Of a stretch of 64,000 nucleotides of DNA, positions 12,601 to 63,192 are shown one piece after another (within the stretch, counting starts at the first letter, position 1; every line of letters starts with the position of its first letter). The position numbers were made by a program, and so were the translations under genes. Origin of the DNA: Streptomyces sp. ICC1 (GTDB lineage Bacteria > Actinomycetota > Actinomycetes > Streptomycetales > Streptomycetaceae); the NCBI RefSeq assembly GCF_003287935.1, contig NZ_CP030287.1, positions 1,054,001 through 1,118,000 of the forward strand, given 5' to 3'. The notes below the pieces were generated by a model. It was given only the letters and a program-made list of their open reading frames with translations. It was not told the origin of the DNA and ran no database searches.

Positions 12601-14574
12601 CGCGCAGACCGCGCGCTCGTCGTCGGTGGAGGGCCGCAGGAACGAGCCGGTGACGATCTCGGGTTCGGGCAGTGCGCGGCGGTCGAGCTTGCCGTTCGCG
12701 GTGAGCGGGAACTCGGTCATCACGACGACGTGGGCGGGCACCATGTACTCGACCATGTGCCCGGCGGCCCACGCCTTGACCTCGTCGGCCGTCAGGCCCT
12801 CGCTGTCGGCGGCCGGGATCACGTACCCCACGAGGTAGGTGCCGCCCGCGCTGTTCTTCTTCGCGATGACGCAGGTGTGCCGCACCCCGGGGTGCTCCGC
12901 GAGGCCGACCTCGACGTCCTCGAGCTCCAGGCGCATGCCGCGGATCTTGATCTGGTTGTCGGCCCGGCCGAGGAAGTCGAGCGATCCGTCCGGGGCGAAC
13001 CGGGCGAGGTCACCGGTCCGGTAGAGGCGGGAGCCGTCGTCCGCGAAGGGGTTCGCCACGAACCGCGAGGCGGTCAGCCCGGGTGCGCCGACGTATCCGC
13101 GGCCGAGGAGGAAGCCGCCCACGTAGAGCTCGCCGCCGACGCCGACCGGCACCGGGCGCAGCTCGTCGTCGAGGACGTACAGCTGGGTGTTGGGGTTGGC
13201 CTTGCCGATCGAGGTCGACAGGCGTTCGGCCTCGCCCCGGTAGATGACGTGGGAGACGCCGATGGTCGTCTCGGCCGGGCCGTAGCCGTGGTACATGGGG
13301 ATGTCGAGCCGGGTGCGGTAGCGCTCGTACAGCTCGGGGGTGAGCACCTCGCCGCCGCACCACACGTGGCGCATGCTGTCGAGCCGGTCGGAGTCGCCCG
13401 CGATCTCCAGGAGGACGTCCAGCATGGAGGAGACGAGGTAGGTGAAGGTGACGCGGTGCTCGGCGATCACGCTCAGCAGGTGGTGCGGATCGCGTTCGCC
13501 GCCGGGCCGCAGGACCACGAGCCGGCCGCCGCACACGAGCGGGAGGAAGATCTCGTTGATGGATATGTCGAAGGACAGCGGCGCCTTGAACAGGGACGCG
13601 TCGTCGTGGCCGAAGCCCAGGATCTCGTTGACCTGCCAGAGCAGGCGCTCGCTGATCGCCTCGTGGCGGATCATCGCGCCCTTGGGGCGGCCGGTGGAAC
13701 CGGACGTGAAGATCACGTAGGCCAGGGAGTTGCCGGGGGCGGTGATTCCGGTGCCCTCGGTGGGCTGGTCGGCGTACCGCCAGTCGTCGAGGTCGACGGT
13801 GACGGCGGCCGGTTCGGCGGGGTCGTGCTCGCCGGAGCCGCTCAGCTGCACCACGACCCGCGCGTCGTCGATGACGACGGCGCGGCGCGCGGCGGGCCAC
13901 TGCGGGTCGAGCGGTACGAAGGCGCAGCCGGCCTGCAGCACTCCGAGGAGGCCGATCACCATGTCGGCGGAGCGGCCGAGCGAGATGCCGACGACCTGCT
14001 CGGCGCCCAGTCCGCGTCCGATCAGGTGGTGGGCCAGCTGGGCGGACAGCTCGGCCGCCTGGCGGTAGGTCAGCGAGCGGTCTTCGTCGATGATGGCGAC
14101 CGCGTCCGGCCTGAGCCGCGCCTGCTCGCGGAACATCTCCACGATGGTCGGCCGGACCCGGTCCGCCCCGGTGTCGTTCCACTCGGCCAGGGTCTTGAGT
14201 CGCTCCGCCGGGTCGGACGGGCCGATGGTTCCGATGGGCCGGTCCGGAAAGTCCGCCAGGTCGTCCAGCGCGCGCTGCGCGTCGGACGCCAGGACCCCCT
14301 CGGGTACGGCGATGCCGATGCCGTCCGGGCCGGCTTCGCCGGTCTCCCAACCGCTCGGTGCGCTGCCGCCGTTGTCGACCCATCCGAGGACGTCCGCGAA
14401 CAGCGTGCCCGGGGTGAGGTCGATGCCGTCGGGGCTCTCGCCCGTCGCCCAGAACGACAGTCCGATGGCACAGGCCTCGGCGACGGTCCGATCGGCGTGG
14501 CCGCCGGTGCGCCGGCGCACGTCGGCCAGGCGCGTAGGAGAGATCAGCACGAGACGAGCGCTCGGTTCCATCAT
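3622..14574 (-). CDS. cchH: Trimodular non-ribosomal peptide synthetase for coelichelin (CchH)
   Basis: A 3650-residue NRPS with order A1-PCP1-E1-C1-A2-PCP2-E2-C2-A3-PCP3. A1 (about 135-640) reads D336-I337-N340-Y379-W405-G407-G430-I438-G439, the code described for formyl-hydroxyornithine. A2 (about 1630-2140) reads D-F-W-N-V-G-M-V-H, the threonine code. A3 (about 3080-3560) reads D-M-E-N-L-G-L-I-N, as for hydroxyornithine. Carrier serines are about 682, 2187 and 3610. Two epimerisation domains (HHxxxD motifs at 851 and 2359) fit the D-residues of coelichelin. C1 has a normal HHIIADG (1329-1335). C2 has HLLLWDG (2759-2765), with Leu for the second, catalytic His. No thioesterase domain is present, and three modules must yield a tetrapeptide. 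Residues 1-130 have no recognised domain. Confidence 0.97.
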
Positions 14575-45777: not shown

Positions 45778-47070
45778 TCAGGAACCGTCGGCGAGCGCCT
45801 TCTCCCAGGCGTCGGCCAGCCGTGAGACGCCCTCCCGGCGCTGCGCCTCGTCCAGCGAGGCGAAGGACAGCCGCAGCACGCGCGAGCCGTCCTCCTCGAT
45901 GCAGAAGGGCGTACCGGGCACGATGGCCACGCCCCGCGCGAGCGCGTGCGCGTACAGCGCCTCGGAGCCGACCCGGGGGTCGGTCAGCCGGCACCAGAAG
46001 AAGAGGCCGCCGCGCGGCCGCTCGAAGTCCAGCCAGGGCAGGCGCTCGCGCAGCAGCGCCTCCATGTCCCGCGCCCGCCCGCCGTAGAGCGTGCGCAGTC
46101 CCGCCAGGTGGGCCGGCAGGAACTCCGGGTCCCCCAGCAGGTCGACGAGCAGGTACTGGCCGAAGGTGTTGGTCTGCAGGTCGCCGCACTGCTTGGCGGC
46201 GATCAGCTCCCCGATCAGATCGGCGGGCGCGACCAGGCCGGCCACCCGCAGGCCCGGGCAGACCGTCTTGGACAGGCTCATCAGCCGGACCACCCGGTCG
46301 CTGTGGACGTCGGTGGACGGCAGCCGGCCGCCCTCGAAGGCCAGGTCGCCGTACGGGTCGTCCTCGACCACCAGGAAGCCGTACCGCTCGGCCAGCGCGG
46401 CCAGGTGGCGGCGCCGCTCCGCGGAGAGGACCGCCCCGGTGGGGTTGTGGAAGTGCGGTACGACGTAGACCAGTTTGGGCCGGGCGCCGGCGGCCAGGCG
46501 CTCCTCCAGCACGTCGGTGCGCATGCCGTCCGCGTCCGCGGGCACCGGCAGCAGCCGGGCGCCGGCCCGCCGGAAGACCTGTACGGCGCCCAGGTAGCTG
46601 GGGTCGTCCAGCGCCACCTCGTCGCCCTCGTCGATGAGGGTCTGGGCGACGAGGTCGAGGCCCTGCTGGCTGCCGGCGGTGACCATCACCCGGTCGGGCG
46701 TGACGGGAGCGCCGGTCGCGGTGGCCCGCGCCGCGATCACCTCGAGCATCGGGGCGATGCCGTCCGTGGGGGCGTACTGGAGCGCCGGCACGGCGGAGCG
46801 GGCGAACAGCCGCTCGGTCGCCTCGGCGAGCCGGGCCACGGGGAAGCTGTCGGGCGCCGGGATGCCCCCGGCCATCGAGAGCACTCCGGGCGCGCCGGCG
46901 GCCGCCAGGATCCGGCTCACCGCGTCGGAGCGGCCCCAGCCGGTGCGGCGGGCGAGCAGTTCCCCGATGCCGCGGGCCGCCGGGGGCACCGTCGTCGCCG
47001 GGAGCGCCGTCATCGCCGGGAGCGCCGTCGTCGCCGTCGTGGCCGGGGTCGCCGGGGTCACGGGGGTCAC
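45778..47070 (-). CDS. Class I/II PLP-dependent aminotransferase
   Basis: A 430-residue fold-type I aminotransferase like 2-aminoadipate/aromatic transaminases of the MocR-related class but without a GntR domain. It has MAGGIPAPDSFP, VPHFHNPTGAVLS, VVEDDPYGDLAFEG, the PLP lysine in SLSKTVCPGLRVAG, and GLFFWCRL near the end. The first 35 residues are Thr/Ala/Pro repeats and are probably not part of the fold. The start is GTG at 47070, overlapping the transporter stop as GTGA. As part of the HypEF-containing unit it probably supplies or modifies an amino acid building block. Confidence 0.9.
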   Translation of the reverse strand: MTPVTPATPATTATTALPAMTALPATTVPPAARGIGELLARRTGWGRSDAVSRILAAAGAPGVLSMAGGIPAPDSFPVARLAEATERLFARSAVPALQYAPTDGIAPMLEVIAARATATGAPVTPDRVMVTAGSQQGLDLVAQTLIDEGDEVALDDPSYLGAVQVFRRAGARLLPVPADADGMRTDVLEERLAAGARPKLVYVVPHFHNPTGAVLSAERRRHLAALAERYGFLVVEDDPYGDLAFEGGRLPSTDVHSDRVVRLMSLSKTVCPGLRVAGLVAPADLIGELIAAKQCGDLQTNTFGQYLLVDLLGDPEFLPAHLAGLRTLYGGRARDMEALLRERLPWLDFERPRGGLFFWCRLTDPRVGSEALYAHALARGVAIVPGTPFCIEEDGSRVLRLSFASLDEAQRREGVSRLADAWEKALADGS

Positions 47071-48407
47071 CTTGCCTCCACCTTCCGCGGCTCCGCGCCG
47101 ATCTGCGCCGGGAAGTCCTTCAGGCGCCACACCGGCGACTTCAGGACCACCAGGACCGCGGTCAGGAAGACCGCGGCCGTGACGAACAAGGTCTCCCGCA
47201 GCCCGATGAGGTCGCCGAGCCAGCCGCCCAGCAGGGCGCCGAGCGGGAGCGTCCCCCAGGAGACGAACCGGTAGCCGGCGTTCATCCGGCCCAGGAGGTG
47301 GTCCGGGGTCATGGACTGGCGCAGGGAGATGATGTGGATGTTGGCGATGGTGCCGCCCGCGCCGATCAGGGCGAAGGCGGCGACGAACAGGGCGATCGAG
47401 GGCGCACCGCCGTTCGCCGGGGCCGCCGGGATGGCCACGGGCGCCAGGCAGCACAGCAGCAGGGCCGCCAGGATGGCCGGGCCGAGCCCGATCCTGCGCT
47501 TGAGCCGCTGCGCGAACATCGAGCCGACCAGGGAGCCCACCGCGCCGGTGCCCAGCAGCAGGCCGATGCCCCCGGGCGAGATGCCGAGCGTGCGGGCCGC
47601 GTACAGCACGAACACCGTCTGGAGCGACATCCAGCACAGGTTGTACAGCCCGGACTGGAGGGCGCAGGCCCGCAGGTGGGCGCTGTCCCAGATGATCCGG
47701 ACGCCCTGCTTGATGCTCGTGCGGATGCCGGTCCGCTCCTGCTGGGGCTCCGGCGCCGGTTCGGTGCGCCGTACCGCGAGCAGCGTGAGCACGGACACCA
47801 GGTACGAGATCCCGTTGATCAGCAGCGCGTAGGGGGCCGTGACCCAGCCGACGAGCAGGCCGGCCAGTCCGGGACCGCCGATCTGGGCCAGCGAACTGGT
47901 GCCCTGGAGCTTGCTGTTGCCCTCCACCAGGTGCTCCTTGCCGACCAGGGTCGGCAGGTACGACTGGTAGGAGACGTCGAAGACCACGGTCAGGGTGCCG
48001 ACGAGCAGCGCGGCGACGTAGACGTACTCGATGCGCAGCAGGTCGAGCACGGCCAGCAGCGGTACCGCGCTGACCAGCAGCGCGCGCCCCACGTTGGCCA
48101 TGATCATCAGGGGCCTGCGGCGCACCCGGTCGACCCAGACGCCGACCAGGAGGGTGACCATCAGGAACGGGGCGTAGGAGGCCGCGTTGACGAAGCCCAC
48201 CTGCGAGGAGCTGGCGTCGAGCGTGAGCACCGCGGTGAGCGGCAGTGCCAGGGTCGTGACCTGGGCCCCGACCTGTGAGATCGCCTCCCCGGACCAGAAC
48301 TTGAGGAATTCCGGGTCCCGCCAGAGCGTGGAGTTCCCGGCGCCGGCCGGGGGGCCGGCCGGCGCCTCCTCCAGCGCCTCGGCGGCTCCGTTCCCGATGT
48401 CGGTCAC
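47067..48407 (-). CDS. MFS exporter
   Basis: A 446-residue major facilitator with 12 predicted helices, of the MFS_3/enterobactin-exporter-like type common beside biosynthetic genes: FWSGEAISQVGAQVTTLALPL, VGVWVDRVRRRPLM, LGRMNAGYRFVSWGTLPLGALLGG. Expected role: efflux of the cluster's product. The GTG start at 48407 overlaps the ATP-grasp stop (48404) as GTGA, and its own stop overlaps the aminotransferase start in the same way, so three proteins are translationally chained. Confidence 0.92.
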   Translation of the reverse strand: MTDIGNGAAEALEEAPAGPPAGAGNSTLWRDPEFLKFWSGEAISQVGAQVTTLALPLTAVLTLDASSSQVGFVNAASYAPFLMVTLLVGVWVDRVRRRPLMIMANVGRALLVSAVPLLAVLDLLRIEYVYVAALLVGTLTVVFDVSYQSYLPTLVGKEHLVEGNSKLQGTSSLAQIGGPGLAGLLVGWVTAPYALLINGISYLVSVLTLLAVRRTEPAPEPQQERTGIRTSIKQGVRIIWDSAHLRACALQSGLYNLCWMSLQTVFVLYAARTLGISPGGIGLLLGTGAVGSLVGSMFAQRLKRRIGLGPAILAALLLCCLAPVAIPAAPANGGAPSIALFVAAFALIGAGGTIANIHIISLRQSMTPDHLLGRMNAGYRFVSWGTLPLGALLGGWLGDLIGLRETLFVTAAVFLTAVLVVLKSPVWRLKDFPAQIGAEPRKVEAR

Positions 48408-51125: not shown

Positions 51126-52394
51126 TCAGTTCTGCGGGTCGGGCGGGCCGGCGGCCGGTACGCAGGTCAGCCGGAAGCCGTTCGCGGCCTCGGTGATGGC
51201 CGCCTCGACCTCCCGGGTGGAGGGGCCGCGGAAGCGGAAGCGGGTGCCGACGTGCTCGTAGCCGCTGATCGCCGGGGCCACGTCGCCGACCGGGGTGTGC
51301 AGGACGGCGTACGGGAGGCGGCCCGGCCGGGGCGTGCCCACCCAGCCGGCGGCCTCCACCCGGCAGGGGGCGGGCACCGGCAGCGGGAGGAGCAGGTAGC
51401 CGCCGACCTCGCCGGTCTTCAGGGGCGGCAGGACCGGGGTCAGGCCGAGCTGGATGTCGACGGCGGCGGCCATCAGGTCGACGCCGTGGACGTCGCGCCA
51501 GGTGAAGGGGATCTCGCCGCCGCCCACCCGGGCCCCGCATTCGAGGAAGACCAGCGCGGGCCCGCCGTCGGGCGCCGCGGTGACGAAGGCCTCCAGGTGG
51601 AAGACCCACGGCCGGGTGCCGCCGAGGGCGGCGCCGACGGCCGCGGCGAAGGCCTCCGTGGCCTCCAGGAGCGCGGGGTCGTCCTCCTCCACGGAGCCGA
51701 GCCAGGTGCCCTGGGTGAAGTCGGCGCAGGTGCCGCCGACGTAGCGGGAGACCGTCCAGCTGCCCAGCGAATCGCCCTCCCACAGGCCGTCGATGTGCAG
51801 GATCGGCCCGTCCACGTAGCTCTGGACGAGGTACGGCTCCCCGGCCAGGGCGGCGGCCAGGCCCGCCACCTCGGCCACGTCCTCGGCGCGGTCCACCCGG
51901 ACCACGCCCCGGCTGGCGGTGCCCCGGTGCGGTTTGACGACCACCGGCCAGCCGTGGGCTTCGCCGAAGTCGGTCACCGCGGCCGGGTCGGGCGCCGGGG
52001 CGAAGGCCGGTACGGGCAGCCCGGCGGCCGCCGCCGTGCGGCACATCGTCAGCTTGTCGCGGAAGACGGCCAGTTCGGCGGTGTGCTGGCCGGGGATCGC
52101 GAACTCCTCGCGGATCAGCGCGGCCGTGTCGAGGTCTCCCTCGTTGAGGGCGACGAGCCGGGCCGGGGTGCCGAAACGGGCGGCGAGGCCGGTGACGGCC
52201 GCGCGCACGGCGGGCAGGTCGTCGGTCAGCCCCACGGCGACGACCGCGGCGGCGGCCGGGGGCAGCGAGGCGCGGCCGAGCTCGGTGCTCACGTAGGTGA
52301 CGTGGGCGGCGGCGTGGTCGAGGTAGTCGGTGTAGTGCGCGTGGGTGTCCCGCCAACGGTGCAGGACGAGGATGTGGGGGCGGTCGCCGTTCAT
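51126..52394 (-). CDS. ATP-grasp amino acid ligase
   Basis: A 422-residue ATP-grasp protein of the amino acid/dipeptide ligase type (BtrJ/DdaF-like by general layout). It contains WPVVVKPHRGTASRGVVRV (ATP-binding lysine and small loop), YLVQSYVDGPILHIDGL, FHLEAFVT and the metal-binding FLECGARVGGGEIPF. It should activate a carboxylate as acyl phosphate and couple it to an amine. The ATG at 52394 overlaps the amidohydrolase stop as ATGA. It is one of three ligase-type domains in the unit. Confidence 0.9.
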   Translation of the reverse strand: MNGDRPHILVLHRWRDTHAHYTDYLDHAAAHVTYVSTELGRASLPPAAAAVVAVGLTDDLPAVRAAVTGLAARFGTPARLVALNEGDLDTAALIREEFAIPGQHTAELAVFRDKLTMCRTAAAAGLPVPAFAPAPDPAAVTDFGEAHGWPVVVKPHRGTASRGVVRVDRAEDVAEVAGLAAALAGEPYLVQSYVDGPILHIDGLWEGDSLGSWTVSRYVGGTCADFTQGTWLGSVEEDDPALLEATEAFAAAVGAALGGTRPWVFHLEAFVTAAPDGGPALVFLECGARVGGGEIPFTWRDVHGVDLMAAAVDIQLGLTPVLPPLKTGEVGGYLLLPLPVPAPCRVEAAGWVGTPRPGRLPYAVLHTPVGDVAPAISGYEHVGTRFRFRGPSTREVEAAITEAANGFRLTCVPAAGPPDPQN

Positions 52395-53755
52395 GCGCTC
52401 CGGCCCTCCTCTCCCGGCTGCACGGCCGCGGCGGCCTCGGCGGTCTCGGGCACCTCGGAGGTCTCAGAGGTCTCGGCGGGCTGGGCGGTCTCGGCGGCGA
52501 GCCAGGGCAGGGCGGCCGTGGCCATCGTGCGGACGCCCACGGACAGCGCGGGTCCGGCGACGGGCGCGAAGGTGGACGAGTGGTTCTGCGGGAGGTCCTC
52601 CAGCCGGCCGGCCGCGAAGGCCTCGCCGAAGGCCTGCGGGTCGAGGCCGCCGTAGAACCAGTACACCGAGGGGACTCCGGCCGCGGTGGCGAGGAGTCCG
52701 AAGTCCTCGCTGGCGGTGGTCGGGCCCATGGTCATGACGGCGCCGGCCCCGAAGTGGTCGCGGTGGGCCTGGGCGACCCGCTCGGCGCTCGCCGTGTCGT
52801 TGACCGTCATCGGCAGGTGGTAGACGGAGGTGATCTCCGGGTCGGCGGTCGCTCCGGCGGCGGCCGACTCGGCGCGCGCCAGGCGCTCGATGGCCGCGAG
52901 CACCTTCTCGCGCACCGGGGCGGAGCTGGTGCGGACGTTGATGCCGAGCTCGGCGGTGTCGGGTATGACCGCGGCGGTGGTGCCGGCCTGCAGCTTGCCG
53001 ACGGTGAGCACCACCGGTTCCTGGGCGGCGACCTCGCGGGAGACCACCGTCTGGAGCCGCAGCACCAGGGAGGCGGCCATGACCACCGGGTCCACCGCGG
53101 CCTCGGGCTTGGAGCCGTGGCCGCCGCGCCCGAAGAGCTTGACGGTGATGGAGTCGGTGGCGCCCATGACCGTGCCGGGCAGGGTCGCGACGAGTCCGAC
53201 CGGGCCGGGTCCCACGTGCGAGCCGAGGATGACGTCGGGGCGCGGGAACCGCTCGAAGAGGCCGTCCTCGACCATCTCGCGGGCGCCGTAGCCGCTCTCC
53301 TCGCCCGGCTGGAAGACGGCGACGACGGTGCCCCGCCAGGCCTCCCGGTTGCGGGCGAACAGCTCGCAGGTCCCGATCAGGGCGGCCACGTGCAGATCGT
53401 GTCCGCAGGCGTGCATCACCGGCACCTCGGCGCCCGTGTCGTCGGTGGCGGTCTCCGTGCTCGCGTACGGCAGTCCGGTGGCCTCCTTGACGGGCAGCGC
53501 GTCCATGTCGGCGCGCAGCATGGCCACGGGTCCGTCGCCGTTGCGGAGAACGGCGACCACGCCGGTGCGGCCGACGCCGGTGGTGATCTCCCAGCCGCCC
53601 TGGGCGGCCAGCCGCTCGGCGACGAGCGCGGCGGTCCGCTTCTCCTGGAAGGCGAGTTCGGGGTGTGCGTGCAGTTCGCGATAGTCGGCTTCAAGGGCCG
53701 GCATCAGCGAGTCGAGACCATCGAGCAGTGCAGTCATGGCGTCCTTCTCAGACAT
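52391..53755 (-). CDS. M20-family amidohydrolase/peptidase
   Basis: A 454-residue zinc/manganese amidohydrolase of the IAA-amino acid hydrolase/hippurate hydrolase type. The metal and catalytic residues appear in HAHPELAFQEKRT, LRADMDALPV, MHACGHDLHVA, FQPGEESGYGAREM, SHVGPGP and TASEDFGLL. Such enzymes remove N-acyl groups from amino acids; here it could unmask an amine acetylated by the cluster's GNAT enzyme or process a peptide. The C-terminus has an Ala/Glu/Thr-rich tail. Its start overlaps the upstream transporter stop by eight bases. Confidence 0.92.
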   Translation of the reverse strand: MSEKDAMTALLDGLDSLMPALEADYRELHAHPELAFQEKRTAALVAERLAAQGGWEITTGVGRTGVVAVLRNGDGPVAMLRADMDALPVKEATGLPYASTETATDDTGAEVPVMHACGHDLHVAALIGTCELFARNREAWRGTVVAVFQPGEESGYGAREMVEDGLFERFPRPDVILGSHVGPGPVGLVATLPGTVMGATDSITVKLFGRGGHGSKPEAAVDPVVMAASLVLRLQTVVSREVAAQEPVVLTVGKLQAGTTAAVIPDTAELGINVRTSSAPVREKVLAAIERLARAESAAAGATADPEITSVYHLPMTVNDTASAERVAQAHRDHFGAGAVMTMGPTTASEDFGLLATAAGVPSVYWFYGGLDPQAFGEAFAAGRLEDLPQNHSSTFAPVAGPALSVGVRTMATAALPWLAAETAQPAETSETSEVPETAEAAAAVQPGEEGRSA

Positions 53756-55109
53756 GAGGGGTTACGGAGGACGTGGGGTGCTCGCGTACACCCCATGAGG
53801 CGGCCAGCGCCGCCGCGGCGGTGAGTGCGGGCCACCACGGCAGCCAGTCGTTGTGCCCTGCCGAGCGCAGCAGCTCCGCGAGCATCGGGAAGGTGCCGCC
53901 GAAGAGGCTGATCGCGGCCGCGGTGGGCAGGCCCACCGCCACGGCGCGCACGGCCGTCGGGAACATCCGGCCGGCGAAGACGTTGCTCACGGCGAGCGGC
54001 AGGCCCAGCAGGAAGAGCAGGACCACGGTGACCAGTTGGACGGGCACCCGGCCGGAGGTCATGGCCGCCAGCAGCGGGACGGTGCCCAGGGCGAGCCCGG
54101 CGAAGCCGGTGCGCAGGACGGGCAGGGCGCCGAACCGGTCCGCGGCCTTGCCGCCGCCGAGCATCGCGGCCAGCAGGGCCGCCATGCCCAGCAGCAGGGC
54201 CGCGGAGGTCTCCTCCTTGGTGGCGGCGCCCGCGCTGGCCGCGTAGGACGGGAAGTCGACGGTGACGAAGTAGAAGGCGGTGGTGGCGCCGGAGGTGATG
54301 GCGAACACCACGGCGAGGCTTCCGAGGTGGGAGCGGAGCACCGGCCAGGGGCTCGGCGCCTTGGCGGCGGCGGCCGTGAAGGCGGCGCTCTCCGCCGCGC
54401 CGCGCCGGATCCACAGGGCGGTGAGGCCGAGCAGGCCGCCGAAGACGAAGCCGTAGCGCCAGCCGCCGTCCTCGACCCCGCTCTCCCCGAACACCCCGAG
54501 CAGGACGTTCATCACGATGAAGGACAGCGCGCTGCCCAGCACCACGCCCGCGTAGGAGACGGCGCTGTAGAAGTAGCGCCGCCCGGCCGGGGCGGTCTCG
54601 GTGACGTACGCGGCCACGCTCGGGTTCTCCGCTCCCACCGAGAGCCCCTGCACCAGCCGGGCGCCGACCACCAGGAGCGGGGCGGCCAGGCCGATGGAGG
54701 CGTATCCGGGTACGACGGCCAGGAGCAGGGAGCCGGCCGCGATGAGGCCGACGGTGAGGGTCAGTCCGTAGCGCCGGCCGCGGGTGTCGGTGAGGCGGCC
54801 GATGAGCACGCTGCCCAGGGGCCGGACCAGGAAGCCGAGGGCGAAGCCCAGGTAGGCGGCGATGAGTTTGGCGGTGGGCGAGGAGCCGGGGAAGAGCGCC
54901 TCGGCGAAGTAGGGGGCCAGGATGCCGTAGATGGTCCAGTCGTAGGCCTCGACCACCGAGCCGACGGTGGCGGCGGCCAGTTCCCTGCGGGGCCGCCGGG
55001 CCGCCGCGGGGACGGTGCCCGTCTGCGCGGGGGCGGTGTCCGCCGCCGCGGGGACGGTGCCCGCCGCGGCGCCGGCCGCCGGTAAGCCGACTTGCTCAGT
55101 GCTGGTCAT
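53748..55109 (-). CDS. MFS transporter, MHS (metabolite:H+ symporter) type
   Basis: A 453-residue, 12-helix transporter of the MHS group, shown by VGSVVEAYDWTIYGILAPYF, FLVRPLGSVLIGRLTDTRGRR and GARLVQGLSVGAENPSVAAYV. Members import organic acids or zwitterions with protons; in this unit it may import a precursor, complementing the exporter at 47067-48407. The first 40 residues are Ala/Pro/Thr-rich and cytoplasmic. Its ATG overlaps the upstream stop by 14 bases. Confidence 0.9.
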   Translation of the reverse strand: MTSTEQVGLPAAGAAAGTVPAAADTAPAQTGTVPAAARRPRRELAAATVGSVVEAYDWTIYGILAPYFAEALFPGSSPTAKLIAAYLGFALGFLVRPLGSVLIGRLTDTRGRRYGLTLTVGLIAAGSLLLAVVPGYASIGLAAPLLVVGARLVQGLSVGAENPSVAAYVTETAPAGRRYFYSAVSYAGVVLGSALSFIVMNVLLGVFGESGVEDGGWRYGFVFGGLLGLTALWIRRGAAESAAFTAAAAKAPSPWPVLRSHLGSLAVVFAITSGATTAFYFVTVDFPSYAASAGAATKEETSAALLLGMAALLAAMLGGGKAADRFGALPVLRTGFAGLALGTVPLLAAMTSGRVPVQLVTVVLLFLLGLPLAVSNVFAGRMFPTAVRAVAVGLPTAAAISLFGGTFPMLAELLRSAGHNDWLPWWPALTAAAALAASWGVREHPTSSVTPHV

Positions 55110-55809
55110 CTGTCACTCCGTAGACCCTGATCAATGTGTCGTCCGGGCCGGGGAACGGCACGGCGTGCAGCCGGACCCCGGTCGCCGGGAGTTCCTCCAG
55201 GCCGGTCAGGCCCGTGAGGGCGGGCAGGCCGGCGGCGGCGAGTGCCCGCGCCACCGGTCCGTCGCCCTGCCGGCTGTCGGTCGCCACGAGGGCCGCGCCC
55301 TGCCCGGCGAGCAGTTCCACCGCGTCCTCGGTGAGGTACGGGCCGTCCTGGCGGCCGGTCTGCACCACGACGGCGTGTCCGGCGAGGTCGAAGGGGGCCA
55401 GCGCGAGCCGGTCGGCGACCGGCCGCCCGGCTCCGAGGAGTCGCAGCAGGACCACGGGCAGGTCCACCAGGCCGGCCAGGGCCGGTGCGCCGCCGCCGGG
55501 AGCCGCGGGCCAGGCGGCCCTGGTCGCGGGGCCGGTCAGGTCGGCGGTGCGGCGGCCCGAGCCGGGGGCGGCGGTGTGGCGGGAGCCCTTGTGCGGCTCC
55601 TGGAGCAGCTCCCGGCGCGTGATCTTCGTGCTGCCGACCATCAGCAGTCCGAGGTGGCGCACCAGCAGTTCGCCGAGCTCCCCGTCGGCGATGTCGTCAC
55701 CGGGGATGTCCAGCCGGAATCCCTGGGTCTGCAAGGCGCCGCCGTTGCTGAAGACGACCTCCGCGTCGAAGTCGACCCGCCACTGACCGCTGCTCGTTCC
55801 CGTGGTCAT
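55096..55809 (-). CDS. Cyclase/kynurenine-formamidase-like protein lacking the metal motif
   Basis: A 237-residue protein. Residues about 10-65 (VDFDAEVVFSNGGALQTQGF, LLVRHLGLLMVGSTKI, EPHKGSRH) resemble a domain that precedes the cyclase family (kynurenine formamidase fold) in some actinobacterial proteins. The second part (VADRLALAPFDLAGHAVVVQTG, PYLTEDAVELLAGQGAALVATDS, ALTGLTGLEELPATGVRLHAVP) looks like that fold's core. The metal-binding HxGTHxDxP motif of active cyclases is not present, so it may be inactive or act without metal. I am unsure of its function. It lies 73 bases after the aminotransferase gene. Confidence 0.65.
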   Translation of the reverse strand: MTTGTSSGQWRVDFDAEVVFSNGGALQTQGFRLDIPGDDIADGELGELLVRHLGLLMVGSTKITRRELLQEPHKGSRHTAAPGSGRRTADLTGPATRAAWPAAPGGGAPALAGLVDLPVVLLRLLGAGRPVADRLALAPFDLAGHAVVVQTGRQDGPYLTEDAVELLAGQGAALVATDSRQGDGPVARALAAAGLPALTGLTGLEELPATGVRLHAVPFPGPDDTLIRVYGVTDDQH

Positions 55810-55882: not shown

Positions 55883-57217
55883 TCAGGCGCAGTCGATCAG
55901 AGCTTTCTCCAGAGCCGCCGCCATCTCGTGGATCTCGCCCTCGGTGATGATCAGTGGCGGCAGGAGGCGGAGCACGGCGCCGTGGCGGCCGCCGCTCTCC
56001 AGCAGCAGCCCGTGATCCAGGCAGGCCCGCTTGACGCGCTTGGCGCGGGCTCCGTCGGCGGGCAGGGCGCCGAGCGCGTCGGCCCGGCCGAGCGGGTCCA
56101 CGATCTCGATGCCCCACATCAGGCCCCGGCCGCGGACCTGGCCGATCTCGGGGTGGACCGCGGCGAGGCGGCCCAGCAGTTCCGCGATCAACTCGCCCTT
56201 GGCGACGGCCTTCTCGATCAGGCCCTCGGACTCCGTGACCCGCATGGCGGCGAGTCCGGCGACGAGCGCGATCTGGTTGCCGCGGAAGGTGCCCGCGTGG
56301 GCGCCGGGCGACCAGGAGTCGTACTTGCCGTGGTAGAGCAGCATCGACAGCGGGAAGCCGCCGCCGGCCGCCTTGGAGACCAGTACGGCGTCCGGCTCGA
56401 TCCCGGACTCCTCGAAGGCCCACATGGTGCCGGTGCGCCCGAAGCCCGCCTGGATCTCGTCCAGGACCAGCGGGATGTCCAGCCGGGCGGTGATCTCCCG
56501 CAGCCCCCGCAGCCAGGCCGGCGGCGCGGGGATGACCCCGCCCTCGCCCTGGACCGCCTCGACGAAGACGGCGGCCGGCTTGGTGATGCCGCTCTCCGGG
56601 TCGGTGAGCAGCCGCTCGATGTAGGTCAGGCCGGCCCGGACGCCCGCCTCGCCGCCGATGCCGAACGGGCAGCGGTAGTCGTAGGGGTAGGGCAGGTGGT
56701 GGACGTCCGGCATGAGGGAGGGCACGGCCTCCTTGGCGCCCAGGTTGCCGGTGAGCGCGAGCGCCCCCGCCGTCATCCCGTGGTAGGCGCCGTGGAAGGA
56801 CAGCACCGTCCGGCGGCCCGTCGCGGTCTTGAACAGCTTGATGGCCGCCTCGGTGGCGTCGGTGCCCGCGGGCCCGCAGAACTGCGTCTTGAAGTGGTCG
56901 GCCATGGTGCCGGGCAGCCGTGCGTACAGGGCCTGGAGGTACTCGTACTTGGCGGGGGTGGTCAGGTCCAGCGCCTGCTGGACCTGACCGGAGGAGAGGT
57001 ACCGCGCGACCTCGCGCAGCACCTCGGGGTGGTTGTGCCCCAGGGCGAGGGTGCCCGCCGCGGCGAGGCAGTCGAGGTACTCGCGGCCGTGTCCGTCACG
57101 GATCCGCGCGCCGCGGCCCTCGGTGAGGATCTGGCCGAAGGCGTTGGCGTAGGTCCGGGCGCCCGACTCGCGCTCCTTGACGAAGGCGTACATGTCGTCC
57201 GGCGTGAGGGTGGTCAC
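55883..57217 (-). CDS. Class III aminotransferase, diaminobutyrate--2-oxoglutarate type
   Basis: A 444-residue fold-type I, subgroup III transaminase. Motifs are DCLAAAGTLALGHNHPEV, SFHGAYHGMTAGALALTGN, VQGEGGVIPAP, LVLDEIQAGFGRTG and the PLP lysine in VLVSKAAGGGFPLS. The sequence is closest to EctB/DABA aminotransferases, which make L-2,4-diaminobutyrate from aspartate semialdehyde. No EctA or EctC follows, so ectoine is not the product. A diamino acid would fit ATP-grasp ligases and an amine-modifying diiron oxidase. The start is GTG at 57217, four bases after the hypF stop. Confidence 0.9.
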   Translation of the reverse strand: MTTLTPDDMYAFVKERESGARTYANAFGQILTEGRGARIRDGHGREYLDCLAAAGTLALGHNHPEVLREVARYLSSGQVQQALDLTTPAKYEYLQALYARLPGTMADHFKTQFCGPAGTDATEAAIKLFKTATGRRTVLSFHGAYHGMTAGALALTGNLGAKEAVPSLMPDVHHLPYPYDYRCPFGIGGEAGVRAGLTYIERLLTDPESGITKPAAVFVEAVQGEGGVIPAPPAWLRGLREITARLDIPLVLDEIQAGFGRTGTMWAFEESGIEPDAVLVSKAAGGGFPLSMLLYHGKYDSWSPGAHAGTFRGNQIALVAGLAAMRVTESEGLIEKAVAKGELIAELLGRLAAVHPEIGQVRGRGLMWGIEIVDPLGRADALGALPADGARAKRVKRACLDHGLLLESGGRHGAVLRLLPPLIITEGEIHEMAAALEKALIDCA

Positions 57218-57221
57218 GTCT

Positions 57222-59591
57222 TCACTTCCTCAGGTGTGAGCGGGCGTCGGCGACCATGACCTGACCGAGGGCGATCCCTCCGTCGTTGGTCGGCACGAGC
57301 CGCTGGACGTAGGTGTCGAAACCGTCGGCGGTCAGCCCGGTCAGACAGTTGAGCAGCAGGAATTCGTTGAGGAACACGCCTCCGGAGAGGGCGACCTGGT
57401 TGACCCCGGTCTCCTCCCGCAGGGCCTTGCAGCGCTCCCGGACCATCTCGACGACGGCCGTGTGGAACCTGCGGCTGATCCGATCCGTGGGCAGTCCGGC
57501 GGCGATGTCGGCGGCCATGGCCCGGATCACGGGCCGCGGGTCCACCTCGGTGAGGCCGTCCGCCGCGTAGGCGCCGAAGCGGTACTCCGGCCCCTCCTCC
57601 CGGGTCGCGTCGCGGCCCAGGAGTCCTTCCAGTTCGATCGGGCCCTGTGCCTCGTACTCGGCTTTGGCGCACACTCCGGCCAGGGCGGCGGCCCCGTCGA
57701 AGAGGCGGCCCATGCTGGAGGTCGGCGGGGAGTTGATGCCGCGGGCCGCCATGGTCGCGAAGACCTGGCGCCGCTGTGCGTCGAGGGTGGCGAGGGCGGG
57801 GAAGCCGGCCAGGGCCCGGTCCTGGTCCCCGTCGAAGGCGTCGAGGGCGAGGGCGTACCCCGTGCGGATGGGTTCGCGCACGGCCTGGTCCCCGCCGATC
57901 AGCGGCAGTCCGCGCATCCGGCCGACGCGGCGGAAGGAGGCGAAGTCCCCGAGGAGGAACTCCCCGCCCCACACCGTGCCGTCCTCGCCGTAGCCGAAGC
58001 CGTCGAATATGACGCCGAGGGTGGTGCCGCTCACGTGGTTCTCCGCCATGCAGGAGGCCATGTGCGCGTGGTGGTGCTGGACTTCCACGGTGGGGCCGGC
58101 CGGGCCCGTGCCGTCGTCGTCCAGGGCGGCGCGGGTGGAGCGGAACTGCGGGTGCATGTCGTGCGCGGTGATCTCCGGCTTCAGCGCGTAGAGCTGTGCG
58201 AGGTGCCGGGCGGTGCGGTGGTGCGCGGCGAAGGTCTCGTCGTTCTTGAGGTCGCCGATGTGCTGGCTGAGGAAGACCCGGGAGCCGTTGGTGAGGGCGA
58301 CGGTCGTCTTCAGCTCGGCTCCGAGGGCGACCACGGGGGCGACCTCGCGGCCGACGTCCACCGGGTAGGGGGCGTAGCCGCGGGCCCGCCGGATGAACTG
58401 GAGGAGCGGCTTGTCGAGTTCGGGGTGGGCCGAGAGGCGGACGACCGAGTCGTCCACGCGGATCTCGATGTCGCGGTCGTGGTAGAGGATGACGTCCGCG
58501 ATCTCGAAGAGCTGCTCCAGCGCCTCCTCGTTGCGGTAGGCGATGGGGTAGCCGGAGATGTTGCCGCTGGTGGCGACGAGGGCCTCGAGGCCGGGCTCGT
58601 CCAGCAGCAGGTGGTGGTGGGGTGCCGACGGCAGCATGATCCCCAGGTTGGGGTTGCGCGGCGCCACCGACTCCGGGAGGGAGCCGGGGCGCTTGCGCGC
58701 CAGCAGGATCGGCCGGGCCGGCGAGCGCAGGATGTCGATCTCCTCTTCGGAGAGGTCCACGAGGCCCTGCGCCGTGACGAGGTCGCGGACCATCACCGCG
58801 AAGGGCTTGGAGTCGCGGCGCTTGCGGCTGCGCAGCAGGGCCACGGCCTCCGCGTTCGTCGCGTCCACCACGAGGTGGAAGCCGCCGACGCTCTTCATGG
58901 CCGCGATCCCGCCGTCCGCGAGCACCCGGGCGGCCCCCAGGAGGGCCTCGTCCCCTTCGGCCGTGTTCCCCTCGCGGTCCTGGAGCACCAGCCGGGGGCC
59001 GCAGTCCGGGCACGCGTTGGGCTGCGCGTGGTAGCGCCGGTCCATGGGGTCTTCGTACTCGTTCTTGCAGTCCGCGCACATGGTGAAGGAGGCCATGGTG
59101 GTCATCGGACGGTCGTACGGCAGGTCCTGGATGATGGAGTACCGGGGCCCGCAGTTGGTGCAGTTGATGAAGGGGTAGCGGTGCCGGCGGTCCTTCGGGT
59201 CCCGAAGTTCCGCCTGGCAGTCGCCACACACGTGGGTGTCCGCCGGGAGCAGCGCGGACCGGGCTCCGGTGTGCTCGCTGTGCACGATGGTGAACGGGCC
59301 GGGGGGCACGCTCCCCGGGGCCAGGTCCCGGGTGGGACGGACTTCGTCCACCCGGGCGAGCTCGGGGGCGCGGCCGCTCAGGCCGGCCGCGAACTCCTCC
59401 AGGGCGGCGACCGGTCCGGACGCCTCCACCAGCACGCCCTCGGGGTCGTTGCGGACCCAGCCGGACAGGCCGAGTTCGCGGGCCAGCTTGTAGACGAAGG
59501 GCCGGTAGCCGACGCCCTGGACCACGCCGGTGACGCGGATGCGCCACTCCTCCGTGCACACTGCGGGCTCTGCGCTCTGATCGATGCTCAT
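57222..59591 (-). CDS. hypF: HypF-type carbamoyltransferase
   Basis: A complete 789-residue HypF. The acylphosphatase domain (about 13-100) keeps the catalytic Arg30 and Asn48. Two zinc fingers follow, with cysteine pairs at 122/125 and 144/147, then 172/175 and 194/197. Next come a YrdC-like domain (about 210-400) and a Kae1-like domain with HHHAHMASC and GGVFLNEFLLLNCL. HypF turns carbamoyl phosphate and ATP into carbamoyl-AMP and carbamoylates HypE's terminal Cys. All catalytic parts look intact, but no hydrogenase, HypC or HypD gene is here. The ATG at 59591 follows GGGGAG; hypE ends 20 bases upstream. Confidence 0.95.
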   Translation of the reverse strand: MSIDQSAEPAVCTEEWRIRVTGVVQGVGYRPFVYKLARELGLSGWVRNDPEGVLVEASGPVAALEEFAAGLSGRAPELARVDEVRPTRDLAPGSVPPGPFTIVHSEHTGARSALLPADTHVCGDCQAELRDPKDRRHRYPFINCTNCGPRYSIIQDLPYDRPMTTMASFTMCADCKNEYEDPMDRRYHAQPNACPDCGPRLVLQDREGNTAEGDEALLGAARVLADGGIAAMKSVGGFHLVVDATNAEAVALLRSRKRRDSKPFAVMVRDLVTAQGLVDLSEEEIDILRSPARPILLARKRPGSLPESVAPRNPNLGIMLPSAPHHHLLLDEPGLEALVATSGNISGYPIAYRNEEALEQLFEIADVILYHDRDIEIRVDDSVVRLSAHPELDKPLLQFIRRARGYAPYPVDVGREVAPVVALGAELKTTVALTNGSRVFLSQHIGDLKNDETFAAHHRTARHLAQLYALKPEITAHDMHPQFRSTRAALDDDGTGPAGPTVEVQHHHAHMASCMAENHVSGTTLGVIFDGFGYGEDGTVWGGEFLLGDFASFRRVGRMRGLPLIGGDQAVREPIRTGYALALDAFDGDQDRALAGFPALATLDAQRRQVFATMAARGINSPPTSSMGRLFDGAAALAGVCAKAEYEAQGPIELEGLLGRDATREEGPEYRFGAYAADGLTEVDPRPVIRAMAADIAAGLPTDRISRRFHTAVVEMVRERCKALREETGVNQVALSGGVFLNEFLLLNCLTGLTADGFDTYVQRLVPTNDGGIALGQVMVADARSHLRK

Positions 59592-59611
59592 GGCGGTCTC
59601 CCCGGCCCTTC

Positions 59612-60637
59612 TCAGCAGAGCCGGGGGAGCTCTGCGCCGAGCAGCTCCTCCAGCTGGGTCTCGCGACCCTCCTTGTCGCGCAGCAGGACCAGGCCCTCGG
59701 TGTCCTCGGAGATCTCGCCGATGGTCACCGCGTGCTTGCCGTAGGGCAGGGAGCGCAGGGCGGCCAGCACCTCGGCCTCGGCCTCCGGGTCCACGAAGAC
59801 CGCCAGGCAGCCCTCGTTGGCGCAGTGGAGGGGGTTGATGCCGAGCATGTCGGCGGCCATCGCGGTCTCGTGCTGGATGGGCAGGTCGTCCTGGGCGACG
59901 CGGATGGTGCGGCCGAGCTTGTGGGCGTACTCGTGGAGCACCGCCGTCAGGCCGCCGCGGGTGACGTCGCGCATCGAGCGGACGGCGCCGGCGGGGACGG
60001 TGGAGAGCACCGTTTCGACGAGGCCGTTGAGCGGGGCGCAGTCGCTGTCCACGCGCTGTTCGAAGCCGAGGCCCTCGCGGATGGAGAGCAGGTGGACGGT
60101 GTGGTTGCCGATGGGGCCGCTGAGGATCACCTTGTCGCCGGGGCGCACGTCGGTCATGGTGAGCGGCTCGCGCTCGAAGACCCCGACGCCCGCGGTGTTG
60201 AGGTAGATCTGGTCGGCCTCGCCCTTGCGGACGACCTTGGTGTCACCTCCGACGATCTGTACGTCGGCCTCGCGGGCGGTGTCGCGGATCGACTCCAGGA
60301 CCTGGACGAGCTTGGGTATGGGCAGCCCGGTCTCCAGGATCATGCCGAGGGTGAGGTACTTGGGCCGGGCGCCCGCCACGGCCAGGTCGTTGACGGTGCC
60401 GCAGACCGCGATCTTCCCGATGTCCCCGTTGCCGAAGAACGGCGGGTCGATCACGAAGGAGTCGGTGGTCATCGCGATGCGGTCGCCCTCGATCTTGAGG
60501 ACCGCACTGTCCTCCATGATGCCGACGTACACGTCGCCGAGGGTCTGTGCGATCAGCTGGACCAGGTCCTGGCTGAGCTTCGCGCCGGTGCCGTGGTCGA
60601 GAACGATGTACTGGGTGGGGTCCACGCTCGTGGTCAT
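59612..60637 (-). CDS. hypE: HypE-type carbamoyl dehydratase
   Basis: A 341-residue PurM-fold ATPase with the HypE hallmarks FGNGDIGKIAVCGTVNDLAVAG (split here by no gap), DTKVVRKGEAD, and SMRDVTRGGLTAVLHEYA. The chain ends in ELPRLC, with the C-terminal Cys341 that HypF carbamoylates and HypE dehydrates to thiocyanate. Everything needed to make enzyme-bound -SCN is therefore present. In hydrogenase maturation the cyano group goes to iron on HypC-HypD; here the acceptor must be different or encoded elsewhere. It lies between the isochorismatase-fold gene (43-base gap) and hypF. Confidence 0.95.
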   Translation of the reverse strand: MTTSVDPTQYIVLDHGTGAKLSQDLVQLIAQTLGDVYVGIMEDSAVLKIEGDRIAMTTDSFVIDPPFFGNGDIGKIAVCGTVNDLAVAGARPKYLTLGMILETGLPIPKLVQVLESIRDTAREADVQIVGGDTKVVRKGEADQIYLNTAGVGVFEREPLTMTDVRPGDKVILSGPIGNHTVHLLSIREGLGFEQRVDSDCAPLNGLVETVLSTVPAGAVRSMRDVTRGGLTAVLHEYAHKLGRTIRVAQDDLPIQHETAMAADMLGINPLHCANEGCLAVFVDPEAEAEVLAALRSLPYGKHAVTIGEISEDTEGLVLLRDKEGRETQLEELLGAELPRLC

Positions 60638-60680: not shown

Positions 60681-61265
60681 TCACGGGGTCTTGATGTTCT
60701 TGCGGGGCAGACCGCCCTCGGCGTCCAGGACGCGCAGGACCTCGGAGGAGTCGGTCACGGTGGCGCAGTAGCCCTCGAGCCAGTCCAGGGCGCGCTGCTT
60801 GTCGTCCAGGCGGGCCGAGACGACGCAGTCGGACGGGACCCAGATGTTGTAGCCGCGGAAGAAGGCGTCGGCGGCGGTGGTCTGGACGCAGATCTGCGTC
60901 TGCATGCCGGTGATCAGGACGGTGTCGACGCCGAGGGCCTGGAGGCGCTCGTGCAGGTCGGTCTCGTAGAAGCCCGAGTCCTTGCTCTTCTCCATGACGA
61001 CGTCCTCGGGGGCGAGGAACGCCTCGATGACGTCGGCGCCGTGGGTGCCGCGGGTGACCGGGAGGTAGCCGTCGTAGCGCTCGGCGTTCGGGTCGTCCGG
61101 GTCGTTGACCAGCTGCAGGTGGAAGATGTGGTGGCCGCGGCGGCGCATCTCGTCGAGGAACCCGGTGAAGTGCGGGGTCGCGGCCTCGACGGCGGCGACG
61201 CGCTCGGGGTTCTTCTCGACCAGTTCGTACTGGAGGTCGTTGGTGAGGACGGCGATCTTCGACAT
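60681..61265 (-). CDS. Isochorismatase-fold cysteine hydrolase
   Basis: A 194-residue cysteine hydrolase with the triad Asp10 (LTNDLQ), Lys93 (VMEKSKDSGF) and Cys126 (MQTQICVQTTA). The family includes nicotinamidases, N-carbamoylsarcosine and ureidoacrylate amidohydrolases. Directly upstream of the carbamoyl-handling hypE-hypF pair, a role on an N-carbamoyl or amide intermediate is plausible, but this is inference. GAAGGG precedes the ATG at 61265. It is unrelated in role to the isochorismatase suspected at the left edge. Confidence 0.9.
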   Translation of the reverse strand: MSKIAVLTNDLQYELVEKNPERVAAVEAATPHFTGFLDEMRRRGHHIFHLQLVNDPDDPNAERYDGYLPVTRGTHGADVIEAFLAPEDVVMEKSKDSGFYETDLHERLQALGVDTVLITGMQTQICVQTTAADAFFRGYNIWVPSDCVVSARLDDKQRALDWLEGYCATVTDSSEVLRVLDAEGGLPRKNIKTP

Positions 61266-61608: not shown

Positions 61609-62184
61609 CTACGCGGCCACGCGGTCGGACTCGATCTCGTGCAGCCAGCTGCCGGTGGCCTCGAAGTGGGCCGTGATGTCGGCGAGCCGGGCGTACATGT
61701 AGAAGCCGGTGACGGGGCGTTCGTCGGCGCGGGCGTAGTCGGGCAGCCGGCCGTACTCGCGGAAGCCCAGGCGCTGCCAGAGCACGGAGGGGCCGTCGTC
61801 GCGGACTTCGAGCGTGATGACGTCGCATCCCATCTCGCCGACCTTGCGCAGGGCCTCGGCCCAGCCCTCGAGCAGGAACTGCCCGCGGTAGTCGGGGGCG
61901 ACGACGCAGCGGCGCATCTCGACGATGTGGCGGCGGGCCGGCAGCGGCGCCCGGGCGAGGGTCACCATGCCGACGATGCGGCCTTCGTCGTTGCGGACGT
62001 GGAGGAGGTCGACGGCCCCCTTCCGCAGGTCGGCCTCGAAGGCCCGCATCAGCGGGAGGCCCTTCTCCAGCCCTACGGGTTCGTAGAAGCCGAGGGTCAT
62101 CTCCTTGACCGCCACGGCGTCCATCAGCTCGATCATTTCGCGCATGTCCTGCTCGGACAGCTCGCGAGGCCATGAATAGTGCAT
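61609..62184 (-). CDS. GNAT-family N-acetyltransferase
   Basis: A 191-residue GNAT protein: a long N-terminal helical part (SEQDMREMIELMDAVAVKEM), strand IVGMVTLARAP, the acetyl-CoA loop region RRCVVAPDYRGQFLLEGWAEAL, and the late VLWQRLGFREYGRLPDY. It should acetylate an amine using acetyl-CoA. In this unit it could protect an amino group of a diamino acid, to be removed later by the M20 amidohydrolase. It could equally be a self-resistance enzyme. The start is the ATG at 62184. Confidence 0.88.
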   Translation of the reverse strand: MHYSWPRELSEQDMREMIELMDAVAVKEMTLGFYEPVGLEKGLPLMRAFEADLRKGAVDLLHVRNDEGRIVGMVTLARAPLPARRHIVEMRRCVVAPDYRGQFLLEGWAEALRKVGEMGCDVITLEVRDDGPSVLWQRLGFREYGRLPDYARADERPVTGFYMYARLADITAHFEATGSWLHEIESDRVAA

Positions 62185-62322
62185 CGTCGTCTTCCTTGGT
62201 GAGTGGACGGGAGAGGCAGCCGGACCCCGGACACCGCGCGCACGGCCCCGCCGGGGCGGTGCGGACATCTGGGAGCGCAATGTCCGGGATCGCCGGCTTG
62301 CGGAGGTGGCGACTTGCGTGTC

Positions 62323-62388: not shown

Positions 62389-63192
62389 CTAGACCGAGGC
62401 CGTGGCCTGCGTCTGCAGGTTGGTCTGGACGGCGGCGGCCGGGGCCGCCTGGGTCAGCAGCGAGAGGTCGGCGCCGGCGCCGAGCACGGTGGCGGCGTAG
62501 ACCTCGACGAAGTAGGAGACGAACAGGGAGTTGATCTTGATGAGGTGCTCGACGAAGCGCTCTTCGTCGTCCTCGTCCTTGACGACCCGCATGATGAGGT
62601 TCCAGACCATGTCCACGTGGTCGTCGTCCTCGTCGAGGGCCAGGTGGGCGCGGGCGCCCTTGGTGTTGGCGGCCCCGACGTGCTGCTCCATGATGTTGAG
62701 CCAGTCGGGCTGGGTCTTGCCCGCGATGTACTCCAGGTAGAAGCCGCTGATCATGGCCGCGAGCGGACCCTCGGTGGCCATCGTGTAGTAGAAGTAGCCG
62801 TTGAGCAGCTCGGTGGCGAAGGTCGGACGGATCGCGTAGATCTCCTCGTCCGTCATGCCCACCTTGTGCAGGTCGCCGGCGAACATGCGGTCGTGGCGGC
62901 CCTCCTCCGCGCCGTACAGCCCCCACTCCTTGCAGAGCTGCGGGTCGCGGGTGGCCCAGTAGTTGGCGATGAGCGGGTCGACGGCGCGCTTGAGACCGAT
63001 GCGGATCATCGTCTCGACGTTGTGCCGCTTGTACAGGTCGAGGTCGAACTTGTCCTTGTCGAGCATGCCGTCGGCGCCCGCGCTGCGCTCGTAGAAGTCC
63101 CGCTCGAACTTCAGCAGGAGGTCGTCCACTCGCTTGCGGAACTCGGGTCGCTGCAGGTTGGAGTACGTGTTGTACGACTTACTTCGAGGCAT
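62389..63192 (-). CDS. Heme-oxygenase-like diiron oxidase
   Basis: A 267-residue all-helical protein of the iron-containing redox enzyme (HDO) group, whose members include UndA, BelK/HrmI, RohS, AetD and part of SznF. Candidate iron ligands are Glu97 and His100 (GAEEGRH), Glu141 or Glu154 (MATEGPL, FYLEY), and His183, Asp187/189 and His192 (HLALDEDDDH). The last motif is two residues longer than the usual HxxxDxxH. These enzymes activate O2 to oxidise amines or cleave C-C bonds, giving nitro, N-hydroxy, alkene or nitrile products. Directly after a small secreted-peptide gene, it is the first enzyme of the unit. Confidence 0.87.
   Translation of the reverse strand: MPRSKSYNTYSNLQRPEFRKRVDDLLLKFERDFYERSAGADGMLDKDKFDLDLYKRHNVETMIRIGLKRAVDPLIANYWATRDPQLCKEWGLYGAEEGRHDRMFAGDLHKVGMTDEEIYAIRPTFATELLNGYFYYTMATEGPLAAMISGFYLEYIAGKTQPDWLNIMEQHVGAANTKGARAHLALDEDDDHVDMVWNLIMRVVKDEDDEERFVEHLIKINSLFVSYFVEVYAATVLGAGADLSLLTQAAPAAAVQTNLQTQATASV

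Follow-up and report, generated by a model that had tools for sequence, protein, structure and literature searches.

An isochorismatase-fold protein is the constant companion of HypE and HypF in a widespread cassette with a probable role outside hydrogenase maturation

The 64,000-nucleotide stretch of Streptomyces sp. ICC1 analysed here (the window; positions 1054001 to 1118000 of a 9.03 Mb single-contig genome with a G+C content of 72%) carries hypE and hypF, both intact, within a biosynthetic operon on one strand. Our work shows that these two genes are part of a conserved cassette, the third and constant component of which is an isochorismatase-fold cysteine enzyme, here called Isoch, encoded directly before HypE in the window. 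In the known Hyp chemistry, HypF draws on carbamoyl phosphate and ATP to carbamoylate the C-terminal cysteine of HypE, and HypE dehydrates the carbamoyl group to a thiocyanate with ATP. A dedicated non-hydrogenase role of the cassette is well supported, and transfer of the resulting cyano (CN) unit to an organic acceptor is its most likely function. An original prediction, made from the letters of the window alone, had proposed a use of Hyp chemistry outside hydrogenases; it is partly supported, and it missed the Isoch partner, the spread beyond actinobacteria and the existence of minimal operons.

The cassette was recognized among 51 loci that came from one pattern-based scan of named genomes with the window HypE, a scan that relatives without those patterns escape and in which the nearest relatives are from Streptomyces. 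All 41 fetched loci with a HypE 49 to 96% identical to the query have tblastn matches to both Isoch and HypF, and none of them has a HypD match within the fetched stretches, some of which end at contig edges. In all 10 more distant loci (HypE 40 to 45% identical), HypF and HypD adjoin HypE and no Isoch match is present. Seven actinobacterial controls with a HypE below 50% identity, fetched from the 27 phylum-sample genomes at 40 to 49% HypE identity that passed the E-value limit and all of the hydrogenase type, have HypD, a HypE ending in PRIC and no match to Isoch. Gene calling recovers all three genes at 40 of 42 loci, the window included, the exceptions being the frameshifted locus L049 and locus L047 with a broken HypF. 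The latter, from Lonsdalea britannica (L047:9342-13352), has a short HypE with an odd end and a split HypF, and its cassette looks decayed or badly assembled; a family search around this genome found the cassette in 1 of 149 genomes, that genome alone. The three genes lie on the same strand in 37 of the 40 loci, with Isoch divergent and about 1 kb away in the other three. At 11 of the 40, the Isoch and HypE genes overlap by four bases, which suggests translational coupling.

Further sampling gave the same trio in 13 of 13 additional Streptomyces regions (7 repeats of earlier assemblies and 6 new), in all six plasmid regions examined, which were six of the ten records listed with a HypE at least 53% identical over nearly the whole query, and in one E. 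coli region. HypE of at least 54% identity occurs in 22 of 392 genomes of a genus sample and, at 68% or above, in 2 of 396 genomes of a phylum sample, the window genome being counted in both; the cassette core is found in 14 of 5426 E. coli genomes. Hence, the range of the cassette includes Streptomyces, Nocardia, Paraburkholderia, Rhizobium and E. coli, in differing contexts.

The cassette HypEs also stand apart from those of hydrogenase loci. A tree of 65 HypEs, built with a quick method, splits 48 cassette from 17 hydrogenase rows by one branch with a support of 100, at which long branches were flagged, and the mixing of actinobacteria, proteobacteria and plasmids within the cassette clade suggests horizontal spread. 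The pairwise distances of the three cassette proteins correlate (r of 0.89, 0.97 and 0.91 over 47 loci, with L047 and L049 left out; best of 999 permutations, 0.26 to 0.35), as is also expected from shared descent of a linked unit. A chance neighborhood of the three genes is ruled out by the co-occurrence in 41 of 41 loci, the distance correlation and the separate HypE clade.

Does the window pair serve a hydrogenase encoded elsewhere? A whole-genome search located a [NiFe]-hydrogenase locus at 1.726 to 1.739 Mb with its own HypA to HypF, which makes the window HypE-HypF pair an extra one. The HypE and HypF of this locus, beside the other hyp genes, score over the cut-offs, and the window HypE and HypF are 43% and 45% identical to them. 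The prediction had named as contrary evidence a hydrogenase locus lacking just hypE and hypF; the locus found has both. Its statement that neither a hydrogenase subunit nor HypA to HypD lies in the window was borne out, with all over-cut-off matches to HypA, HypB, HypC, HypD and the [NiFe] large subunit at 1.726 to 1.738 Mb and none within the window; weak HypB-like and large-subunit-like matches below the cut-off lie elsewhere in the genome, outside the window. Among 40 cassette genomes (the L022 genome left out), searches that covered the entire assemblies, often drafts whose completeness is not stated and which may hide genes, found no HypD in 23. The [NiFe] large-subunit family is over the cut-off in 17 of the 40, and the sole genome with such a match among the 23 lacking HypD is G008 (38.5 bits). 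A fragment of HypD is present in G037, and a large subunit was not found in its assembly. A non-hydrogenase role for the cassette HypE and HypF is therefore very likely. Of the predicted use outside metallocentre assembly, the separation from hydrogenases is supported by the separate hyp locus, the HypE clade and the 23 genomes lacking a HypD match, a support that stops short of the acceptor and the resulting group.

Both Hyp proteins look capable of their usual reactions. HypF has its complete set of domains (Acylphosphatase, the HypF zinc fingers in two stretches, YrdC, Kae1-like and both HypF_C parts), and the zinc-finger cysteines 122, 125, 144, 147, 172, 175, 194 and 197 show no variation across the 46 cassette and 11 hydrogenase HypFs aligned (L047 and L049 left out). 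R30 and N48, which we take to be the catalytic residues of the acylphosphatase part, are invariant in the same rows. The match to TIGR00143, the domain matches and the alignment thus agree with the earlier description of HypF as keeping its acylphosphatase residues, four zinc-finger cysteine pairs and the YrdC and Kae1-like domains. Across 43 cassette rows and 11 hydrogenase rows (L022, L037, L038, L047 and L049 left out), the HypE columns without variation include K134, E275, R339 and C341; K134, E275 and other shared positions presumably have the roles they play in dehydrating HypEs, and C341, invariant in all 54 aligned rows, is the C-terminal cysteine that had been singled out as the carrier of the carbamoyl group and then the thiocyanate.

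Ten HypE columns differ systematically between the cassette and the hydrogenase group, and so does the tail, which reads PRLC in 47 of 48 cassette rows (the exception being the broken L047) and PRIC in 24 of 24 hydrogenase rows (17 of 17, plus 7 of 7 actinobacterial controls). Passages of PMC12130793 describe PRIC as common to all HypE and propose that the arginine of the motif meets HypD, and the tail is written PR(I/V)C in a passage of PMC4506123, a pattern that the PRLC of the window HypE does not fit. The change is conservative and lowers the assignment as a hydrogenase-type HypE and not the assignment as a protein that works like HypE. Two lone HypE-like proteins without Isoch or HypF (L070:11842-12861, in a polyketide cluster, and L092:9603-10604) resemble the cassette HypE in their N-terminal part and end in PRLA and ARLR, so that the terminal cysteine is lost; they are perhaps non-catalytic.

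The same-strand neighbors of the pair are as first described (ligases, aminotransferases, a diiron oxidase and exporters), with the isochorismatase-family gene before HypE overlooked. C126 and C167 of Isoch are invariant in 47 aligned rows (L049 left out), and Asp10, Lys93 and Cys126, which we take to be the Asp-Lys-Cys triad of isochorismatase-like cysteine hydrolases, are all present in the window protein and in 40 of the 47 rows. Unlike the isochorismatase-like amidohydrolases, seven type C Nocardia proteins (L020, L027, L029, L031, L033, L034 and L036) have D10 and K93 replaced by G and R, while C126 and C167 are kept. The predicted model (pLDDT of 93.9) has an isochorismatase-like fold, and a fold search with it returned many isochorismatase-like hydrolases within a few Z units; hence, the fold cannot tell the reaction. 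Matches of Isoch to curated families are all below cut-off, the nearest being biuret hydrolase and RutB.

We hypothesize that the cassette uses the first steps of Hyp chemistry and diverts their product. The conserved residues suggest that HypF would carbamoylate the terminal cysteine of HypE from carbamoyl phosphate and ATP, and that HypE would dehydrate the carbamoyl group to a thiocyanate with ATP. Most likely, Isoch would then replace HypC-HypD, receive the HypE tail and pass the CN unit on to a nucleophile that is a small organic molecule; such a transfer from HypE to a small molecule, probably via Isoch, is the outcome that the sequences favor on balance. Carbamoyl phosphate as the feedstock fits the presence of carB beside two cassettes, the only ones with a carB match among the loci searched. 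In L052, carA and carB directly follow the cassette. The cluster of Streptomyces sp. CBMA156 contains a paralog of the carbamoyl-phosphate synthase large subunit (L021:16248-18489) with 31% identity to its L052 counterpart, to which a second large subunit encoded elsewhere in this genome is 42% identical.

For the window operon, the neighboring genes allow a guess at the acceptor: the best candidate would be 2,4-diaminobutyrate, through its side-chain amine, or the N-acetyl form of this compound; we put forward an amine as CN acceptor only tentatively. It would yield a cyanamide, which may stay as such or become a guanidine or urea. The acetyltransferase of the GNAT family and the M20 peptidase suggest a removable acetyl group, the ATP-grasp proteins would build a short peptide, the MboA-like oxidase may desaturate it and the transporters would export it, so that the product could be a short peptide in which an unsaturated side chain bears CN or a derivative of it. 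The aligned iron ligands E97, H100, E154, H183, D187 and H192 are present in the window oxidase, as are an aspartate (D101, also given as Asp90) and a tyrosine (Y93, also given as Tyr82), with residue roles as given in passages of PMC13185094. The transaminase family occurs in 14 of 42 loci, and 2,4-diaminobutyrate is a candidate acceptor for these clusters alone. Of the family members, that of the window exceeds the TIGR00709 cut-off and that of L053 the EctB cut-off, and those of L043 and L046 stay below theirs; an aspartokinase-family protein that scores below the NCBIfam cut-offs is also encoded in L043.

Several points weigh against CN transfer to an organic acceptor. The case is built on genes and sequences. 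HypD is present in 17 of the 40 cassette genomes, where a side role in maturation is possible. The isochorismatase family consists of hydrolases, and Isoch could be one acting after or beside the transfer. The diaminobutyrate-type transaminase is confined to the 14 loci and absent from the E. coli-type operons, and the carB of L052 is the only one found in that 1.4 Mb assembly.

It is unlikely that HypE only carries the carbamoyl group and that Isoch hands the whole group on to an amine or hydroxyl, with a ureido group or a carbamate as the result. HypE keeps the positions shared with dehydrating HypEs, K134 and E275 among them, and an ordinary carbamoyltransferase would suffice without HypE. 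Biuret hydrolase and RutB, the below-cut-off families nearest to Isoch, do act on ureido groups, and mangotoxin, whose cluster encodes a related oxidase, has a citrulline-type side chain at its end according to passages of PMC13185094. Release of cyanide, cyanamide or thiocyanate, to be exported or used by other enzymes, would suit the minimal operons, which consist of the trio, a transporter and little else; we regard it as quite improbable, as the HAD phosphatase of the enterobacterial operons and the amino acid and peptide enzymes of other clusters suggest an organic acceptor. There is a small chance that Isoch, instead of being a transfer partner, acts as a hydrolase on misplaced carbamoyl or cyano groups, removing or trimming them. 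This would agree with the Asp-Lys-Cys triad in 40 of 47 rows and with a predicted model that fits amidohydrolases, but the seven Nocardia members lose D10 and K93 and keep both cysteines, next to a HypE and HypF with their invariant residues. Finally, a spare maturation pair feeding the HypC and HypD of the distant locus, both of which this genome has and for which both window enzymes look catalytically complete enough, is very improbable and was ruled out as the principal explanation by the HypE and HypF of the hydrogenase locus itself and the 23 of 40 cassette genomes with no HypD found, to which the PRLC tail, the separate clade and the constant Isoch are added.

If CN transfer by the cassette is true, it provides a biological route to a CN group from carbamoyl phosphate that is given to other acceptors without HypC-HypD, and it points to metabolites of a kind not yet described, including one that some E. 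coli strains would make. The annotation of certain hypE and hypF genes as hydrogenase genes would then be wrong. Three proteins are enough for an in vitro test, and Isoch is the part of the cassette to study first. We give about even chances to the wider proposal that the trio is a general, horizontally moving cyanyl-transfer module, found from Streptomyces to E. coli and working without a metal centre, that places cyanamide, guanidine or nitrile groups in exported peptides and metabolites.

The genomic contexts of the cassette differ. Type A (the window, eight fetched loci including Nocardia alni, and the frameshifted L049) combines the core with the oxidase, the acetyltransferase and the transaminase, and with the peptidase and ATP-grasp genes where the contig reaches. 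The nine type B loci have the core, ATP-grasp proteins A and B, a major facilitator superfamily (MFS) transporter, a pyridoxal-dependent decarboxylase-family protein and a protein of 173 to 246 amino acids (aa), the one scanned member of which has no Pfam match. In type C (seven Nocardia), the core accompanies a helix-turn-helix-containing protein and, in five of the seven, a membrane protein that, judged by eye, may be a transporter. The core is joined by a diaminobutyrate-type transaminase in Actinosynnema, two Solirubrobacterales, Paraburkholderia and Streptomyces L043, and in the two Solirubrobacterales a class I tRNA synthetase with a leucyl editing domain is divergent to the cassette (L045:6693-8915 and L046:6870-9086; L046 was scanned and L045 is of the same family), which may be a housekeeping or a resistance copy. 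In nonribosomal peptide synthetase clusters, the core is accompanied by an amidotransferase-type hydrolase and by a transaldolase-like protein that reaches 187.5 bits to TIGR04506, less than the cut-off, and the Streptomyces clavuligerus/sulfonofaciens type has an arginase-family protein and a DUF3865-related oxidase (Pfam match below cut-off). The enterobacterial operon, on Citrobacter and Salmonella plasmids and an E. coli chromosome, consists of LysR, Isoch, HypE, HypF, the HAD phosphatase and an MFS transporter; the E. coli chromosomal operon (L071:8001-13904) adjoins integrase remnants and a tRNA-Asn gene. In Rhizobium leguminosarum the order is Isoch, HypE, a DMT transporter and HypF.

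The oxidase family is present in 9 and the ATP-grasp ligase family in 19 of 42 loci, the window included, which rules out either as the cassette core, and the minimal operons without them place these neighbors outside it. Clusters of hypE-hypF with the same oxidase and ATP-grasp genes exist in actinobacteria, and the cassette itself extends beyond both these neighbors and this phylum. A defence system was rejected as well, as none of the seven cassette proteins matches any PADLOC model.

The genes from Isoch to the class III aminotransferase are separated by about 43, 20 and 4 bases. Apart from the operon, the window has a 3650-aa open reading frame with coding-like composition (window 3622-14574, minus strand).

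Table 1. Genes of the window operon, in their order along the minus strand (window positions), and of the hydrogenase locus (genome positions)
Feature	Position	Strand	Evidence and remarks
HDO diiron oxidase related to MboA	62389..63192, start may be 63129	-	9ypi MboA, E 7.9e-20; accessory, type A clusters only
GNAT acetyltransferase	61609..62280, start may be 62184	-	PF00583, 27.5 bits; family F5, in 12/42 loci; accessory
Isoch, isochorismatase-fold cysteine enzyme	60681..61265	-	PF00857, 118 bits; constant third cassette member
HypE, cassette clade, 341 aa, C-terminal PRLC	59612..60637	-	TIGR02124, 423.5 bits (cut-off 251.6)
HypF, full length, 789 aa	57222..59591	-	TIGR00143, 704.9 bits (cut-off 466)
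Class III aminotransferase, diaminobutyrate--2-oxoglutarate transaminase family	55883..57217	-	TIGR00709, 520.6 bits (cut-off 401.6); family F4, in 14/42 loci; accessory
237-aa protein	55096..55809	-	No Pfam or NCBIfam match; present in 9/42 loci
MFS transporter, likely exporter	53748..55109	-	PF07690, 79.9 bits
M20 family peptidase/amidohydrolase	52391..53755	-	PF01546, 103 bits
ATP-grasp protein A	51126..52394	-	Weak ATP-grasp matches below cut-off; type B clusters have homologs at the corresponding position
ATP-grasp protein B, 872 aa	48404..51022	-	PF13535, 66.3 bits, N-terminal part only
Second transporter, family F6	47067..48407	-	Gene call and family; common to type B clusters, where the member is MFS
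Pyridoxal phosphate (PLP) aminotransferase-like protein	45778..46989	-	PF00155, 116.7 bits, and gene call; last gene listed of the minus-strand run
[NiFe] large subunit	1726764-1728320		One strong locus in genome
HypA	1732645-1732986		Over cut-off
HypB	1733091-1733699		Over cut-off
HypC	1736364-1736570		Single in genome
HypD	1736744-1737787		Single in genome

A related gene set has been noted before. Passages of PMC7794033 (2020) briefly mention a cluster among the decRiPPter candidates in which hypE and hypF accompany an ATP-grasp ligase gene and other hyp genes are absent, and for which a novel function was suggested; it shares these three genes with the window operon, and the passages name neither an isochorismatase partner nor the spread. 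Apart from that paper, the open-licence literature, in a search that left preprints and most subscription papers outside, yielded no report of HypE-HypF outside hydrogenases and no functional study.

The mangotoxin (mbo) cluster, in which two ATP-grasp ligases make the tripeptide substrate of MboA according to passages of PMC13185094, resembles the window in its oxidase with the iron ligands and in its ATP-grasp ligases. The same passages name an arginine deiminase (MboE) and the redox partner MboB and not HypE-HypF; among the scanned window neighbors, one of which has no family, there is no arginine deiminase or amidinotransferase-type family, MboB not having been searched by sequence. Isoch is about 21 to 31% identical to N-carbamoylsarcosine amidase, triuret and biuret hydrolases and RutB. 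Like the HypE and HypF of [NiFe]-hydrogenases, the cassette proteins belong to families over the curated cut-offs and have the same domains, catalytic residues and terminal cysteine. Unlike them, and with about 43 to 45% identity of the window copies to those of the hydrogenase locus in this genome, they form a separate clade with a PRLC tail and have Isoch beside them instead of HypC, HypD or a hydrogenase.

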